From Bacillota bacterium (GTDB lineage: Bacteria > Bacillota > Negativicutes > CTSoil-072), in NCBI GenBank assembly GCA_017889545.1, contig JAGFZV010000012.1, positions 1 through 64,000 on the forward strand: DNA of 64,000 nt, given 5' to 3'. The notes under the pieces were generated by a model. The model made no database searches and was not told where the DNA came from. It was given only the letters and a program-made list of their open reading frames with translations. The position numbers and the translations under genes are program-made. Positions 1-5,267 of the stretch are shown here, piece after piece; position 1 is the stretch's first letter; each line of letters starts with the position of its first letter.

Positions 1-94
<94 letters not shown>

Positions 95-99
95 TTCAT

Positions 100-175
100 T
101 CCTCGATAGCTCAGTTGGTAGAGCATTCGGCTGTTAACCGAATGGTCGTAGGTTCGAGTCCTACTCGAGGAGCCA
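100..175 (+). tRNA. tRNA-Asn (anticodon GTT)
   Basis: This is a complete 76-nt cloverleaf. The acceptor arms are TCCTCGA (100-106) and TCGAGGA (165-171), followed by discriminator G and an encoded CCA (173-175). The anticodon stem TTCGG/CCGAA holds the loop CTGTTAA with anticodon GTT at 133-135. The T loop GGTTCGAGTCC is present. It lies only a few bases after the 5S gene, so it is probably co-transcribed with the rRNA operon. Confidence 0.98.
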
Positions 176-182
176 GTTTCTT

Positions 183-210
183 AGCTGCCTAATTCTTAGG
201 CAGCTTTTTT
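183..210 (+). terminator. Intrinsic terminator of the rRNA/tRNA unit
   Basis: A perfect 9-bp stem AGCTGCCTA (183-191) / TAGGCAGCT (197-205) is followed by a run of T to 210. It lies directly downstream of tRNA-Asn. Confidence 0.92.
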
Positions 211-290
211 AGTACACCAAAAAGTATAAAATTCCCAGCCAACGGCTTCCGCCATCGCAATAAAAGCTCGGCGCAAGCCGGGCTTTCGAA
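211..290 (+). repeat. Dispersed intergenic repeat, copy 1 (short form)
   Basis: It begins AGTACACCAAAAAGTATAAA directly after the terminator and ends with a 40-nt block at 243-282 that recurs at 53021-53060 with a single mismatch. The block contains the hairpin AGCTCGGC-GCAA-GCCGGGCT (one G-T pair, GNRA-type loop). Compared with copy 2, this copy lacks the right arm of the first hairpin (GTACACC...GGTGTAC). No coding potential is seen. Function is unknown; it resembles REP or MITE-like intergenic elements. Confidence 0.75.
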
Positions 291-303
291 TCTTTTATTT
301 AAC

Positions 304-332
304 TTGCTTTAATAAAAAAAATAGAGTAAAAT
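304..332 (+). promoter_or_regulatory. Sigma-A-type promoter of the hydrogenase cassette
   Basis: TTGCTT (304-309), a 17-nt spacer and TAAAAT (327-332). Transcription would start near 339, about 45 nt before the first gene. It is the only good promoter match before the five co-directional genes. Confidence 0.6.
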
Positions 333-348
333 TTAAGTGTGTTAAAAC

Positions 349-366
349 AAGTGAAAAAGTTCACAA
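349..366 (+). promoter_or_regulatory. Candidate Rex (NADH/NAD+ sensor) operator
   Basis: AAGTGAA-AAAG-TTCACAA is an interrupted inverted repeat that matches the Rex consensus TTGTGAA-N4-TTCACAA at 12 of 14 half-site bases; the right half is perfect. It lies just after the predicted transcription start and before the ribosome-binding site, where a bound repressor would block transcription. Rex is known to control hydrogenase and fermentation genes in clostridia. Its action here is inferred from the match alone. Confidence 0.55.
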
Positions 367-385
367 TCATTGGAAGGTGAAAAAT

Positions 386-637
386 TTGGCGAAAATTTCA
401 ATTTGTGTTGGCAGTGCGTGTCATTTGCGAGGTGCGCATGGGGTATTGGATGCTTTTATTGCATTAATTGCGAAATATAATGTTGGTTCTGAAGTAGATA
501 TGGCAGGCAATTTTTGTCATGGAAGATGTACTGAAGGAGTTGTTATTAAAATTGATGACGAGATCATTACTAATGTATCCAAGGACAAGGTTTATGATAT
601 TTTTATAGAAAAAGTGTTGAAAGGAAATCGGCCATGA
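386..637 (+). CDS. Thioredoxin-fold [2Fe-2S] ferredoxin (NuoE/HydC-like small protein)
   Basis: This small protein of about 83 residues carries the C-x4-C (CVGSAC) plus C-x3-C (CHGRC) cysteine pattern of thioredoxin-like [2Fe-2S] ferredoxins related to NuoE and HydC, which pass electrons between NADH-linked flavoproteins and hydrogenases. The start is taken as TTG 386 because GGAAGGTG (372-379) is then well spaced; an upstream GTG at 377 overlaps that site. The first residues then match the paralogue at 3504. It is the first gene of the hydrogenase cassette and its stop overlaps the start of the next gene by 4 nt, implying translational coupling. It is likely the electron carrier for the adjacent hydrogenase, in the cytoplasm. 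The precise partner is inferred from position. Confidence 0.85.
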   Translation: MAKISICVGSACHLRGAHGVLDAFIALIAKYNVGSEVDMAGNFCHGRCTEGVVIKIDDEIITNVSKDKVYDIFIEKVLKGNRP

Positions 638-2322
638 AAATTATTACAACACAAAAAGTGAATTGCAAAGATTGCCATCGATGCGTCCGGTCATGCCCAG
701 TCAAAGCGATTGGCATTGAAAAAGGCCATGCCAGGCTAGTGGAAGATAAATGTATTCATTGTGGCAAATGTATTGTTGAATGTCCTCAGCATGCCAAACA
801 AGTGATTAATCATATCCCTGAAATTGAACAGATTATTGCTTCTGGGCAGCGTGTTGTGATGAGCTTAGCACCATCCTTCGTTGCCTCATTCAGTGAACTT
901 TCACCCGGAGAGCTCGCATCTAAGATCCGTGGTCTTGGATTCAATGCTGTTGAGGAGACGGCGATTGGCGCAGAAGTGGTATCCGGTGTATATCGTTCCT
1001 TATTGGCCAATAGTCGCGATACGGTGTTATCTTCCTGCTGTCCGGTTATTGTGAATTTGATCGAGAAATTTTATCCGCAGCTCGTCCGTAACCTGGCACC
1101 GGTAGTTTCACCTATGGCCGCACATGCCAGAATTATCAGAGAGAAATATGGCGTTGATACATTTGTTGTTTTTGCCGGTCCGTGTGTTGGCAAATTGGCT
1201 GAAATACAGTTGAAAGACAGTATGGTTGATGCTGCAATTACGTTTGAACAATTAAAAGAATGGCTGAGTCGCTCGACCATGACAGTTGACTCGGATGAAA
1301 TTGATCAAGCATGGGGCAATGCAAGATATTTCCCTGTTCCCGGAGGTGTTTTGAAATCATTTATGTGTCATGAGGAAACTGATATAAATGTGATTTCAGT
1401 TGATGGCATCGATAAATGCATTGAGGTCTTTGACGGTCTTCTTCGCAATGAAATAGCCCCCCGCTTTATTGAGGTTATGGCATGCTCTGGCGGTTGTATT
1501 GGCGGACCTGCGAGTGGTGGCAGCTGTATTCCGGCAAAACGGGTTAAAGTGGTCGAGTATGCAAAGAGCAGTCAAAAAGAAGAACCGCATTTTCTACCAG
1601 CCGCTCTGAATTTTCAACGGGTGCATCAGGGCGAAGCATTTATGAGTACAGAGCCGACAGAAGAGATCATTCGTGAAATTTTACAACAAACAGGCAAATT
1701 TTCGAAAGTAGATGAGAAAAATTGCGGAGCCTGCGGTTACAACTCTTGTCGAGAAAAAGCGATTGCGGTGTATAAAGGTTTGGCGGAAATTGAAATGTGT
1801 GTGCCTTATATGCGGTCAAAGGCGGAGTCATATGCTAATATCATTGTCGATAATTCGTTAAATGCGATCATTGTCGTCAATGAAAAAATGATCATTCAGG
1901 ATTTTAATCCGGCAGCTGAAGTAATGTTTGACCGTAAACATGAAGTAACGAAAGGGATTAGCCTTTCTGAAATTATTGACTGCAGCGATTTTTTAACCGC
2001 AGTGGAGAGAGGGAACCAGATGTGTTGGCTTCCCAAACGTGTCGAGTACCCACGCTTTGGGATGATTACGGAACAGCGGATTATTCCGGTACCTGATCAT
2101 GGACTGGTGATTGGTGTATTTACCGATGTAACTGCGAACGAAAATAAAGAACGCGAACTGCAGAAAATAAAATTGGATACTGTAGAAAAAGCAACAGAGA
2201 TCATTAATAAGCAAATGCAGGTTGCGCAAGAAATTGCTGGATTACTGGGAGAAACCACTGCGGAAACAAAGTCCGCTTTGCTTGAACTTATCTGGTTGTT
2301 GAAGGATAAGGAGGGAGCGTGA
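634..2322 (+). CDS. PAS-containing [FeFe]-hydrogenase, probable sensory hydrogenase (HydS-like, group C)
   Basis: Domains in order: two [4Fe-4S] ferredoxin motifs (Cys 11/14/17/21 and 40/43/46/50), an H-cluster domain (about 70-310), a four-cysteine Fe-S domain (CGACGYNSC, Cys 364/367/372/389) and a PAS domain (about 400-510) with a short helical tail. All H-cluster cysteines are present: SSCCP (133-137), GPCVGKLAE (182-190, keeping Lys187 and Glu190 but with Gly for the usual Met) and VMACSGGC (282-288). Both cysteines of the first motif are kept, including the one used for proton transfer in catalytic enzymes. Hydrogenases ending in Fe-S/PAS modules and paired with a PP2C phosphatase are classed as putative H2 sensors. 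Its stop overlaps the phosphatase start, supporting a signalling pair. Whether it turns over H2 cannot be told from sequence. Confidence 0.85.
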   Translation: MKIITTQKVNCKDCHRCVRSCPVKAIGIEKGHARLVEDKCIHCGKCIVECPQHAKQVINHIPEIEQIIASGQRVVMSLAPSFVASFSELSPGELASKIRGLGFNAVEETAIGAEVVSGVYRSLLANSRDTVLSSCCPVIVNLIEKFYPQLVRNLAPVVSPMAAHARIIREKYGVDTFVVFAGPCVGKLAEIQLKDSMVDAAITFEQLKEWLSRSTMTVDSDEIDQAWGNARYFPVPGGVLKSFMCHEETDINVISVDGIDKCIEVFDGLLRNEIAPRFIEVMACSGGCIGGPASGGSCIPAKRVKVVEYAKSSQKEEPHFLPAALNFQRVHQGEAFMSTEPTEEIIREILQQTGKFSKVDEKNCGACGYNSCREKAIAVYKGLAEIEMCVPYMRSKAESYANIIVDNSLNAIIVVNEKMIIQDFNPAAEVMFDRKHEVTKGISLSEIIDCSDFLTAVERGNQMCWLPKRVEYPRFGMITEQRIIPVPDHGLVIGVFTDVTANENKERELQKIKLDTVEKATEIINKQMQVAQEIAGLLGETTAETKSALLELIWLLKDKEGA

Positions 2323-3473
2323 TGCAGCGTTTTCATGCTGAAGTCGGTGTTTCTCAGCTTTCAAAACACGGCGAAGAATTATGCGGAGATAACGTCGAAG
2401 TCGTACGTACGGCGAATTCCACGATTATTGTATTGTCTGATGGCTTAGGCAGCGGTGTGAAGGCGAATATATTGGCAATGCTGACGACAAAAATTGCTTC
2501 TTCCATGCTGAAGCGGGGTATTCCATTAGAAGAGGTCGTTAATACCATTGCGCAGACGTTACCGGTTTGCCGGCAGCGAAAAATTGCGTATTCAACGTTT
2601 CATATCATTAAAATCAATGAAACAGGATTAACAAATGTAATAGAATTTGATTGCCCTACTTCTTTTTTGCTTCGAGGGCATCATGTCCTTCCTTTTCCCT
2701 CTCAGGAAAAGATCATTGCTGGTAAGACTGTGAGAGAGGGGGAGCTGATGTTACAGGAAAATGATAAAATTGTCATGATCAGCGATGGTGTTATTCATGC
2801 TGGAATCGGCGGTTTGCTGAAACTTGGCTGGGGTTGGCAGGGCGTTGAACAGGAATTGAAAACTGCAAATCAAATGAATACTGACGCAGAACAGCTTAGT
2901 CAGCAGATTATCAATTGCTGTCAGGGATTTTATCTTGATCGACCGGGAGATGATTCTACGGCAGTAGTCGTAAAAATCCGCCCCAAACGGGCTCTTACTT
3001 TATTTGTTGGGCCACCGGCAAATTCCGCAAATGATGAAAGAATTACAAAACGGTTTTTAAGCCGTGCGGGGAAAAAGGTGGTTGCCGGCGGAACGACAGC
3101 TCACATTGTCAGTCGAATTACAGGCAAACCGGTAACAACAAAATTAAATTATGAAGATCCTCAAATCCCGCCGATCGGACATATTGATGGGATTGATTTG
3201 GTCACAGAAGGAGTTTTGACAGTGAACGCTGCAGTAGAACGTATGCTGCGCCCGAAGATACTTAAGCAGAGTACACGTCAGGATGGAGCAACTTTACTGG
3301 CTAAGATGCTGATGGATGCCGATATAATCACCCTTTTAGTGGGAACGGCGATCAATCCGGCTCATCAAAATCCCAGCTTTCCGAACCAATTGAATATTAA
3401 AAGCCAAGTGTTAACCAAAATGCAAGAAGTTTTACTTAATTTGGAAAAACAAGTCGAGATTGAATGGCTGTAA
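2322..3473 (+). CDS. SpoIIE-family PP2C serine/threonine phosphatase
   Basis: The N-terminal half is a PP2C/SpoIIE catalytic domain. Metal-binding aspartate motifs are visible: SDGLGSG (about residue 40), ISDGV (about 155) and GDDST (about 209). The C-terminal part, about 150 residues with a segment rich in glycine and threonine (VVAGGTTAHIV), is not recognised. It has no membrane segment, so it is cytoplasmic. The start ATG 2322 (or GTG 2319) overlaps the hydrogenase stop. Such phosphatases typically act on anti-anti-sigma factors or other phosphoproteins; no kinase, STAS protein or anti-sigma factor is encoded nearby, so the substrate is unknown. Context suggests it is the output of the sensory hydrogenase. 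Confidence 0.85.
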   Translation: MQRFHAEVGVSQLSKHGEELCGDNVEVVRTANSTIIVLSDGLGSGVKANILAMLTTKIASSMLKRGIPLEEVVNTIAQTLPVCRQRKIAYSTFHIIKINETGLTNVIEFDCPTSFLLRGHHVLPFPSQEKIIAGKTVREGELMLQENDKIVMISDGVIHAGIGGLLKLGWGWQGVEQELKTANQMNTDAEQLSQQIINCCQGFYLDRPGDDSTAVVVKIRPKRALTLFVGPPANSANDERITKRFLSRAGKKVVAGGTTAHIVSRITGKPVTTKLNYEDPQIPPIGHIDGIDLVTEGVLTVNAAVERMLRPKILKQSTRQDGATLLAKMLMDADIITLLVGTAINPAHQNPSFPNQLNIKSQVLTKMQEVLLNLEKQVEIEWL

Positions 3474-3503
3474 CCTTGAAAAGATTGTAGTGGAGGTTGA
3501 GGT

Positions 3504-3737
3504 ATGCAAAAACTGGTATTGGAGATTTGTGTGGGGACATCTTGTCATCTATTAGGATCACAAGATCTTATACAAATGGTGGAGCGCTTTCCGGCCGAGG
3601 TAAAAAATAAAATTGAACTACAAGGAGCAACTTGTTTGGGAGCATGTGGGAAAGGCCCTAACGTTCGAATAAATGGAACGATATTAAACAATATGACACC
3701 GGAACAATTACAGCAAATTATTTGTGATACTATTTGA
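3504..3737 (+). CDS. Second thioredoxin-fold [2Fe-2S] ferredoxin
   Basis: A paralogue (77 aa) of the gene at 386, with C-x4-C (CVGTSC) and C-x3-C (CLGAC) cluster ligands and the same overall layout. The ATG is preceded by TGGAGGTTGAG. It sits between the phosphatase and the second hydrogenase, 24 nt before the latter, and is probably its electron-transfer partner. Having one such ferredoxin in front of each hydrogenase suggests two parallel modules, hydrogenase plus dedicated carrier. Confidence 0.83.
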   Translation: MQKLVLEICVGTSCHLLGSQDLIQMVERFPAEVKNKIELQGATCLGACGKGPNVRINGTILNNMTPEQLQQIICDTI

Positions 3738-3761
3738 TCGTACGAAAGAGGAGTGAAATTC

Positions 3762-5267
3762 ATGTCTCAGGTGACCGAAGTGGTCAAAATCCGCCGTAAA
3801 GTTTTTGCAGAACTTGCCAGAATGGCATTTGCCGGAACTTTGGAAAAAGATATTGCAACTATTTTAAATACTGTTGTGACAGAAGAAGGGCCCCGCTATC
3901 GCTGTTGTGTCCACAAAGAACGTGCCGTATTGCATAACCGGATTAATTTGGCATTAAGCCAACCGATGACAGTGAGTATTGCTGAGGCTGCTTCTGCTGC
4001 GTTGCAAGGAAAAAGGGTAACTATGCCGGTTGTGAATGTGTTGCCGGAAGCATGCGATCAATGCCCGATTGATAAATTTTTGGTTACTGATGCCTGCCGC
4101 AACTGTATAGCTCACAATTGTATGGCGGCCTGTCCGAAAAAAGCGATCCATGTTGTACTGAACCGTGCTTATATTGATAAGAATAAATGTGTTGAATGCG
4201 GTCTTTGCAAAAAATCTTGTGAATATGGCGCCATTATTGAGATTAGCAGGCCTTGTGAACGAGCATGTGATCTAGGCGCGATCAAAGCGGGCGCTGATCG
4301 CCGGGCTGTCATTGATTATGAAAAATGTGTTCAGTGTGGTGCTTGCAAGACGACGTGTCCATTTGGGGCTGTTGGCGATAAATCGTTTATTGTCCAACTG
4401 ATACAGACATTAAAAGCCGGAAAACGAGTATATGCAATTTTAGCGCCGGCATTTATCGGGCAATTTGGCTTTAAAGTAAAACCCGGCCAAGTTGTTGAAG
4501 CATTAAAAAAAATGGGCTTTCATGATGTTTACGAAGCTTCCTTCGGCGCGGACCTGGTAACAATGACGGAAGCAAAAGAATTAGCCGAAACGCTTGCCGA
4601 GAATCCAAAATCATTTTTGACTACTTCCTGTTGCCCTGCATTTGCCGGTATGGTTCAGAAACATATGCCGGAAATTGCTAATCGGGTCTCGACAACTGTT
4701 TCACCCATGGTTGCGACCGGCAAGATTATTCGGGACAAGGATCCGGAGGCTGTGACCGTATTTATCGGACCTTGTGTTGCCAAAAAAGCAGAAGCGGAAG
4801 AGACAAAAGGAATTATTGATTATGTCTTCACTTTTGAAGAACTGGCAGCGATGATGGTTGGTGCGGGAATTAACCTGGCAGAAGTGGAAAACACCGACTA
4901 TCATTCCACTGCATCAAGAGACGGGAATGGTTTTGCGTGCGCAGGAGGGGTAACTTGTTCGGTGATTGATACTGCAGCAATTATTTCGCCGGAAGTGAAA
5001 ATTATCGCGCAGTGTGGCGAGGGTTTGGCGGAGTGTCAAAAAATATTGAAACAAATCCAGTCCGGCCAAATCTCTGCTAATTTTTTTGAAGGTATGGCTT
5101 GTGTTGGCGGCTGTGTCGGCGGACCTTCTGTGATGGCAGATCGTCGAGTCACTGGAAAATTAGTTGCACATTTTGCCGCGGAGTCATTTGCCGAAGAGTC
5201 TGTCCAAAACAAACCTGTGTCGGAACTGTTAGCGAAAGGTGGACATTGGCACAGAATTCCATCATAA
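3762..5267 (+). CDS. [FeFe]-hydrogenase, monomeric, group B-like
   Basis: A 501-aa protein with an N-terminal domain of about 100 residues containing YRCCVHKER, several ferredoxin-type cysteine motifs (CRNCIAHNCMAAC, CVECGLCKKSC, CVQCGACKTTC) and a full H-cluster domain: TSCCP near residue 290, GPCVAKKAE near 340 and GMACVGGC near 445. All four H-cluster cysteine ligands and the Lys/Glu pair are kept, so it should be catalytic, evolving or consuming H2 with ferredoxin. The architecture matches the group B enzymes of anaerobic Firmicutes; the group call is by motif, not phylogeny. ATG 3762 is chosen over GTG 3753 because GAGGAG at 3748-3753 is then correctly spaced. No terminator is visible; the next gene has its own promoter. 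Confidence 0.87.
   Translation: MSQVTEVVKIRRKVFAELARMAFAGTLEKDIATILNTVVTEEGPRYRCCVHKERAVLHNRINLALSQPMTVSIAEAASAALQGKRVTMPVVNVLPEACDQCPIDKFLVTDACRNCIAHNCMAACPKKAIHVVLNRAYIDKNKCVECGLCKKSCEYGAIIEISRPCERACDLGAIKAGADRRAVIDYEKCVQCGACKTTCPFGAVGDKSFIVQLIQTLKAGKRVYAILAPAFIGQFGFKVKPGQVVEALKKMGFHDVYEASFGADLVTMTEAKELAETLAENPKSFLTTSCCPAFAGMVQKHMPEIANRVSTTVSPMVATGKIIRDKDPEAVTVFIGPCVAKKAEAEETKGIIDYVFTFEELAAMMVGAGINLAEVENTDYHSTASRDGNGFACAGGVTCSVIDTAAIISPEVKIIAQCGEGLAECQKILKQIQSGQISANFFEGMACVGGCVGGPSVMADRRVTGKLVAHFAAESFAEESVQNKPVSELLAKGGHWHRIPS

Follow-up and report, generated by a model that had tools for sequence, protein, structure and literature searches.

In the hfsABCD operon of Thermoanaerobacterium (T. 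saccharolyticum and relatives), hfsB encodes a PAS-domain hydrogenase, hfsC a homologue of serine phosphatases and hfsD a ferredoxin-linked hydrogenase (PMC11837493). Strains lacking hfsA or hfsB show an increase of about 1.8-fold in ethanol yield and of two- to three-fold in adhE transcripts, and loss of hfsB also raises hydrogenase activity; high ethanol was not obtained by deleting hfsC or hfsD (PMC5707799). Deletion of hfsA additionally cuts hfsBCD expression two- to six-fold (PMC5707799). R. albus has an eight-gene cluster in which a sensory hydrogenase and a phosphatase accompany adhE and a hydrogenase; co-culture with an H2-consuming partner lowers its expression 111-fold, and the phosphatase was proposed there as the route of H2 sensing (PMC6776011). 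H2 sensing of this kind sets the choice between ethanol and acetate plus H2 in fermenters that matter for biofuels and in the rumen. The signal relay of sensory [FeFe]-hydrogenases has been stated to be unknown (PMC11376134). Here, a related operon is described from a Bacillota bacterium (Negativicutes; CTSoil-072), in a 64,000-nucleotide stretch of contig JAGFZV010000012.1, referred to as the window.

The operon occupies positions 377-5267 of the plus strand and consists of five genes. The first, fd1, encodes an HfsA-like small thioredoxin-fold [2Fe-2S] ferredoxin (377-637; PF01257, 29.2 bits against a cut-off of 24.8). It is followed by HydS, an HfsB-like putative sensory [FeFe]-hydrogenase of 562 residues (634-2322; PF02906 with an E-value of 3.5e-49, PF04060, a weak PAS match and the tree discussed below), and by an HfsC-like SpoIIE/PP2C phosphatase of 383 residues (2322-3473, start ATG 2322; PF07228, 64.9 bits). 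A second thioredoxin-fold [2Fe-2S] ferredoxin, fd2 (3504-3737; PF01257, 50.4 bits), precedes an HfsD-like group B (monomeric) [FeFe]-hydrogenase of 501 residues (3762-5267, start ATG 3762; TIGR04105, 567.8 bits against a cut-off of 450, and the tree). Domains were called with Pfam and NCBIfam profiles, and structures were assessed with AlphaFold monomer models and Foldseek. An earlier interpretation made from the letters of the DNA (the sequence-only reading) had claimed five genes within 304-5267, and all of them are present on the plus strand, each where it had been placed. The overlaps are also real: fd1 and HydS share ATGA at 634-637, and the final base of the HydS stop codon TGA (2320-2322) is the first base of the phosphatase ATG. 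Gene content and a Selenomonadales assembly (L182) with the same layout both point to the Negativicutes. The arrangement is far beyond chance, since its gene order is found again throughout this class and the phylum.

The window shares with hfsABCD the order of small Fe-S protein, PAS hydrogenase, serine phosphatase and ferredoxin hydrogenase, as well as tight translation and a Rex-type site upstream. Loci L109-L111 have exactly the hfsABCD order and, judged by the published 18-bp hfs Rex site that they contain, are probably from Thermoanaerobacterium. Compared with them along their full length, the window proteins are about 36% (HydS), about 44% (phosphatase) and 40% (hydrogenase) identical. 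Judged by gene order and full-length homology, the locus is an hfsABCD-type operon. It differs in the addition of fd2 between phosphatase and hydrogenase, in its flanks (an rRNA operon and yebC-ruvCAB) and in its Negativicutes host. The cluster of R. albus 7 likewise combines a PAS sensory hydrogenase with a putative Ser/Thr phosphatase, is tied to a fermentative hydrogenase and has an expression that tracks H2. However, it adds adhE and, in the part of PMC5707799 that cites Zheng et al., an adjacent kinase, neither of which lies beside the window operon. The module is not new in kind, and an H2-sensor/phosphatase proposal has already been published for R. albus. What is new here is the near-obligate pairing of sensor and phosphatase, the extreme conservation of the output helix, a phosphatase domain without a Pfam match and an operator conserved across the class.

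The reading favoured for this hfsABCD-type operon, with a probability of roughly 60%, is that HydS is a sensor and the adjacent phosphatase its dedicated output, the two forming an RsbP-like PAS-helix-PP2C switch split over two polypeptides. The split is suggested by a phosphatase that lacks an N-terminal regulatory domain and by a C-terminal helix that is the most conserved part of HydS. In RsbP of Bacillus subtilis, PAS domain, helix and PP2C domain follow in the same order, and the alpha0 helix of the regulatory domain controls the phosphatase, which it is proposed to position by touching the switch helices (PMC5468089). The window system differs from RsbP in its two polypeptides, its hydrogenase/Fe-S input, the extra C-terminal domain of its phosphatase and the lack of any STAS partner found.

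The pairing of HydS with the phosphatase is near-obligate. When 300 Bacillota genomes were searched in two ways, full-length matches to the phosphatase subfamily were found at 111 places in 94 genomes, and an independent query, restricted to the final 60 residues of HydS, found 109 places in 92 genomes. All but one of these helix matches (108/109) end -5 to 83 bp from a phosphatase match on the same strand. The sole exception is genome G285, where the helix match lies on a different contig from that genome's truncated phosphatase match, likely because of a contig break. Three phosphatases have no helix match, namely the truncated one of G285, one in G110 with a diverged HydS directly upstream, and one in G045 (L097) with no HydS adjoining. 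A named-genome collection supplied a second set of 80 phosphatase loci, and in every one of them HydS is directly upstream (80/80). The sequence-only reading had proposed looking for conserved linkage in related genomes, and both searches bear it out. The hydrogenase partner varies between lineages: a group B hydrogenase lies directly downstream in 34/80 of the named-genome loci, HydABC lies within the locus in 16/80 and no hydrogenase partner is present in the fetched flank in 28/80, with the type changing at least three times along the HydS tree (21 rows). Because the partner changes while the pair stays, sensor and phosphatase are the stable core of the module.

HydS is built, in order, from two [4Fe-4S] sites, the H-cluster domain, an extra [4Fe-4S] site, a PAS domain and a C-terminal helix. 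In the H-cluster domain (residues 73-292, 850-1509, plus strand; Pfam), the ligands C136, C184, C284 and C288 are invariant in 46 homologues, and the H-cluster motifs of the second hydrogenase match those of HydS, in agreement with the full ligand sets that had been claimed for both enzymes. The extra Fe-S domain of the sequence-only reading also stands, as a linker at residues 358-393 (1705-1812, plus strand; PF04060 above its cut-off) with C364, C367, C372 and C389 invariant. Its PAS domain needs more care. The window protein itself falls under the Pfam cut-offs (best E-value 0.0025), whereas a homologue clears that of PAS_4 (28.9 against 23.1 bits) and the AlphaFold model, with a mean predicted local distance difference test (pLDDT) score of 88.5, contains a five-stranded PAS-like sheet at 411-498. 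The domain, which is poorly conserved, is placed at residues 404-498 (1843-2127, plus strand).

The putative output helix at the C-terminus (residues 500-558, 2131-2307, plus strand) is assigned from entropy, linkage and the model, with a core at residues 526-546 (2209-2271), KQMQVAQEIAGLLGETTAETK. Across the 46 HydS proteins, entropy is lowest within this helix (0.15 bits for residues 532-546); next comes the Fe-S linker at 361-375 (0.69 bits), then the three H-cluster motifs with a mean of about 1.45 bits. The PAS domain has 2.39 bits. Confidence of the monomer model is low at helix positions 500-538 and 543-558, which might fit a docking element.

A tree of the hydrogenases sets HydS, group B enzymes and HydA-type enzymes apart from one another, with Shimodaira-Hasegawa-like approximate likelihood ratio test (SH-aLRT) supports of 95, 93 and 79, respectively, and all 26 HydS fall on one side of the branch with support 95. 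The tree was a quick one with some long branches, and TmHydS and TamHydS were not among its sequences. Grouping of the first hydrogenase with ordinary catalytic enzymes was the outcome that the sequence-only reading had named as speaking against it; HydS is instead a lineage separate from both catalytic types. HydS shares with group C sensory enzymes the H-cluster ligands, the PAS domain and the separation from catalytic groups, while the second hydrogenase belongs to group B, as its TIGR04105 score indicates. Like the window protein, the group C enzymes TmHydS and TamHydS combine an H-cluster with a PAS domain, and a low-activity sensor role has been proposed for them (PMC10055695, PMC11376134). 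They differ from the window HydS in that the latter keeps the typical C135 and M282 at two of the three positions described as altered in sensory enzymes.

The phosphatase comprises a catalytic domain (residues 1-221, 2322-2984) and a C-terminal domain (222-383, 2985-3470). Its AlphaFold model (mean pLDDT 90.8) resembles SpoIIE over the first ~221 residues (Foldseek match to 5mqh, E-value 9e-16), and the metal-binding aspartates D23, D40, D155, D210 and D211 are invariant in 45 members. By both the model and Foldseek, the catalytic domain begins at the N-terminus without a preceding regulatory domain. The best-conserved block (37-51, 0.18 bits) covers metal ligands and the start of the first helix after the metal site, which from its position we take to be the SpoIIE regulatory-switch helix. 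Since PAS and PP2C domains sit on two separate genes, the single-chain arrangement of RsbP is not found here, and no HydS-phosphatase fusion occurs among the listed open frames.

The C-terminal domain of about 160 residues is conserved almost as well as the catalytic part (mean 1.79 against 1.66 bits), with a block at 289-300 reaching 0.59 bits. A Pfam search of the 45 members gave no consistently covering match, and Foldseek with the whole model returned, among the matches listed, PP2C proteins only, none of them informative on this domain. A likeness to PF17042 was dropped, as it appeared in one paralogue (E-value 0.011) and in 0/45 members. The domain also exists in free-standing form, in open frames of 156-159 residues directly 3' of HydA in three HydABC operons (L089 5945-6415, L090 5623-6102 and L091 5599-6075), each with a second HydC/HydA set after it.

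Taken as a signalling path, electrons from H2 at the H-cluster, or from fd1, would reach the extra [4Fe-4S] cluster beside the PAS domain, which in turn would shift the C-terminal helix. The helix may then dock in trans on the phosphatase's switch helices, setting the activity of that enzyme. The phosphatase would dephosphorylate a target, with altered hydrogenase and fermentation gene activity as the eventual result, and a Rex-type repressor would add NADH control over the whole operon. As for the sign, the deletions in Thermoanaerobacterium and the expression data from R. albus suggest that HydS restrains the phosphatase pathway without H2, and that H2 or reduction lifts this restraint. A more specific version is held tentatively, at slightly worse than even odds: the invariant HydS helix would substitute for the regulatory domain that the phosphatase lacks, the phosphatase would have a new substrate or partner domain (the one also found free beside HydABC), and the output would bypass STAS proteins. 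The signalling step becomes directly testable through QEIAGLLGETTAETK and a single partner protein, which are conserved throughout Bacillota and in some Bacteroidales assemblies.

Several observations weigh against the split sensor-phosphatase switch. In a full deletion in T. thermosaccharolyticum, the ethanol phenotype comes from hfsD alone (PMC11837493), which means that the phosphatase can be dispensable. The strong conservation of the HydS helix could serve dimerisation alone. Sensory enzymes are said to be altered at CpI C299, M353 and M497, with the cysteine retained in 17% (PMC10055695). In the window HydS, M353 is altered (G182), whereas C299 (C135) and M497 (M282) are kept; as these two are typical of catalytic enzymes, HydS might turn over H2. 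Cysteine occupies the C299 position in 24/46 HydS of the present set. This proton-transfer position (window 1030-1044) is N in several close relatives of the window HydS, including L039, L045 and L049, and thus shifts fast within one class.

A further point against it concerns the target. STAS proteins are the usual targets of SpoIIE-type phosphatases. No match to STAS or STAS_2 (PF01740, PF13466) was found with Pfam in the genome, which is 96% complete and in which the controls were detected, and this argues against a classical SpoIIE-type target in this organism. The sequence-only reading had noted that no kinase or sigma-regulator partner lies nearby. As far as tested, this holds, with the genome free of STAS/STAS_2 matches and all RsbW-like ATPase matches on other contigs than the window operon. 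RsbW-like ATPases lie within a HydABC operon on contig C31 of the same genome, G000 (195552-204691; L058), together with two DRTGG proteins, a PHP protein, a histidine-kinase-like ATPase, a hydrogenase-like protein and, as the last gene, Rex. An APH-like kinase was not found in the genome by a search without a positive control.

The best-surviving alternative, which we consider rather unlikely, is that the pair reads the redox state of ferredoxin through fd1 rather than dissolved H2, with the H-cluster acting as a redox reporter or electron vent. This would suit the small [2Fe-2S] ferredoxin gene that precedes HydS in many loci, the three [4Fe-4S] sites that Pfam finds in HydS besides the H-cluster, the variability of proton-path residues in the family (PMC10055695) and the shared phenotype of hfsA and hfsB deletions (PMC5707799). 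That shared phenotype is offset, however, by the drop in hfsBCD expression that hfsA deletion itself causes (PMC5707799). In addition, the four H-cluster ligand cysteines are invariant in the 46 HydS, and the R. albus cluster responds to removal of H2 by a partner (PMC6776011), although redox state changes there too.

Direct, post-translational action of the phosphatase on the neighbouring hydrogenase or ferredoxin, instead of on a transcription pathway, is improbable. Its appeal lies in the frequent group B or HydABC neighbours (34/80 and 16/80), the standalone C-terminal domain directly 3' of HydA and the lack of a STAS target. Against this, the partner type has changed at least three times among the 21 tree rows, 28/80 loci show no hydrogenase partner in the fetched flank, and adhE transcripts change in T. 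saccharolyticum (PMC5707799). As the hydrogenase neighbour differs between lineages, the phosphatase target need not be encoded downstream; the tuning of the downstream hydrogenase put forward in the sequence-only reading is still plausible. The view that HydS works chiefly as a catalytic hydrogenase, or as an electron-transfer subunit for the downstream enzyme, with an incidental phosphatase link, is disfavoured and highly improbable, since complete H-cluster ligands and the kept C135 and M282 are outweighed by the separate lineage in the tree, the near-obligate phosphatase linkage, the strongest constraint falling on the C-terminal helix, and the rise rather than fall of hydrogenase activity on hfsB deletion (PMC5707799).

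Transcriptional control is suggested by a predicted Rex-like operator, AAGTGAAAAAGTTCACAA, a palindrome just upstream of fd1 (349-366) with the core GTGAA-N4-TTCAC. The core occurs at -29 to -45 in 13/16 Negativicutes operons (in 12 with 9 or 10 of 10 bases and in one with 8), giving a summed score of 146, where shuffles reached at most 115. Genome-wide, the exact core is present at 3 places; this count carries no weight because a reversed control pattern occurs at 4. It is the positional conservation of the operator that carries weight. The genome has two Rex genes, one of them at the end of the HydABC operon, so that a Rex gene and a Rex-type palindrome before the operon are both present, as in a Rex regulon. 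The outer bases deviate from TTGTGAA-N4-TTCACAA, and a CRP/FNR-type binder instead of Rex is possible. For hfsABCD, the predicted Rex site is the 18-base TTGTTAATAAATTAACTA (PMC5886521), which was found identical upstream in L109-L111. A second intergenic GTGAA-N4-TTCAC lies on contig C31 (186439-186452), roughly 190 bp ahead of an operon for acyl-CoA dehydrogenase and etf, and is a plausible further Rex target. An exact copy near the HydABC operon (C31:205020) is inside a coding gene and was not counted.

The operon sits immediately 3' of a ribosomal RNA operon, represented in the window by the 3' part of a 5S rRNA gene (1-95, plus strand; Rfam 5S_rRNA, 59.1 bits) and a tRNA (100-172, plus strand; Rfam tRNA, 74.7 bits), with yebC-ruvCAB beyond its far end. 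A terminator-like stem-loop (183-213, plus strand), with a 10-pair stem followed by a T run and the hairpin itself at 183-205, appears to close the rRNA/tRNA unit, and the operon therefore probably has its own promoter. For fd1, whose cysteine pattern is CX4C...CX3C, TTG 385 is the better and probable start because of the Shine-Dalgarno sequence GGAAGG at 371-376. HydS is preceded in G028 and G038 by an N-masked stretch interpreted as rRNA. Giant open frames over HydS in these two genomes were rejected, as they correspond to N-masked stretches, presumably rRNA.

Related modules occur in other settings. The window's genome holds a second, diverged HydS-phosphatase pair on contig C18 (70345-73195; L056 6346-9205), which is 33-36% identical and has no ferredoxin or hydrogenase genes adjoining, and G033 (L057) holds a pair similar to it. 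The module is also present in Bacteroidales and Coprenecus assemblies (L176, L205, L195, L197, L199), which suggests transfer between phyla. In 13 loci, adhE adjoins the module (L177, L203, L193, L208, L162, L100, L102, L127, L189, L154, L176, L181 and L116), and 7 of them have an APH-like kinase (about 250 residues) between adhE and the ferredoxin-HydS genes. Such neighbours agree with what was reported for R. albus and with the response of adhE in Thermoanaerobacterium. Finally, a TnpB-like gene with a weak Cas12f1-like TNB zinc ribbon lies directly 3' of the phosphatase, overlapping or near its end, in L133 (9160-10716), L134 (7110-8603) and L140 (9170-10690). In the L133 protein, the RuvC-type motifs look degenerate (GISRGIKN, VVLQNL), and it may be a nuclease-dead, TnpB-derived regulator recruited into the HydS operon.

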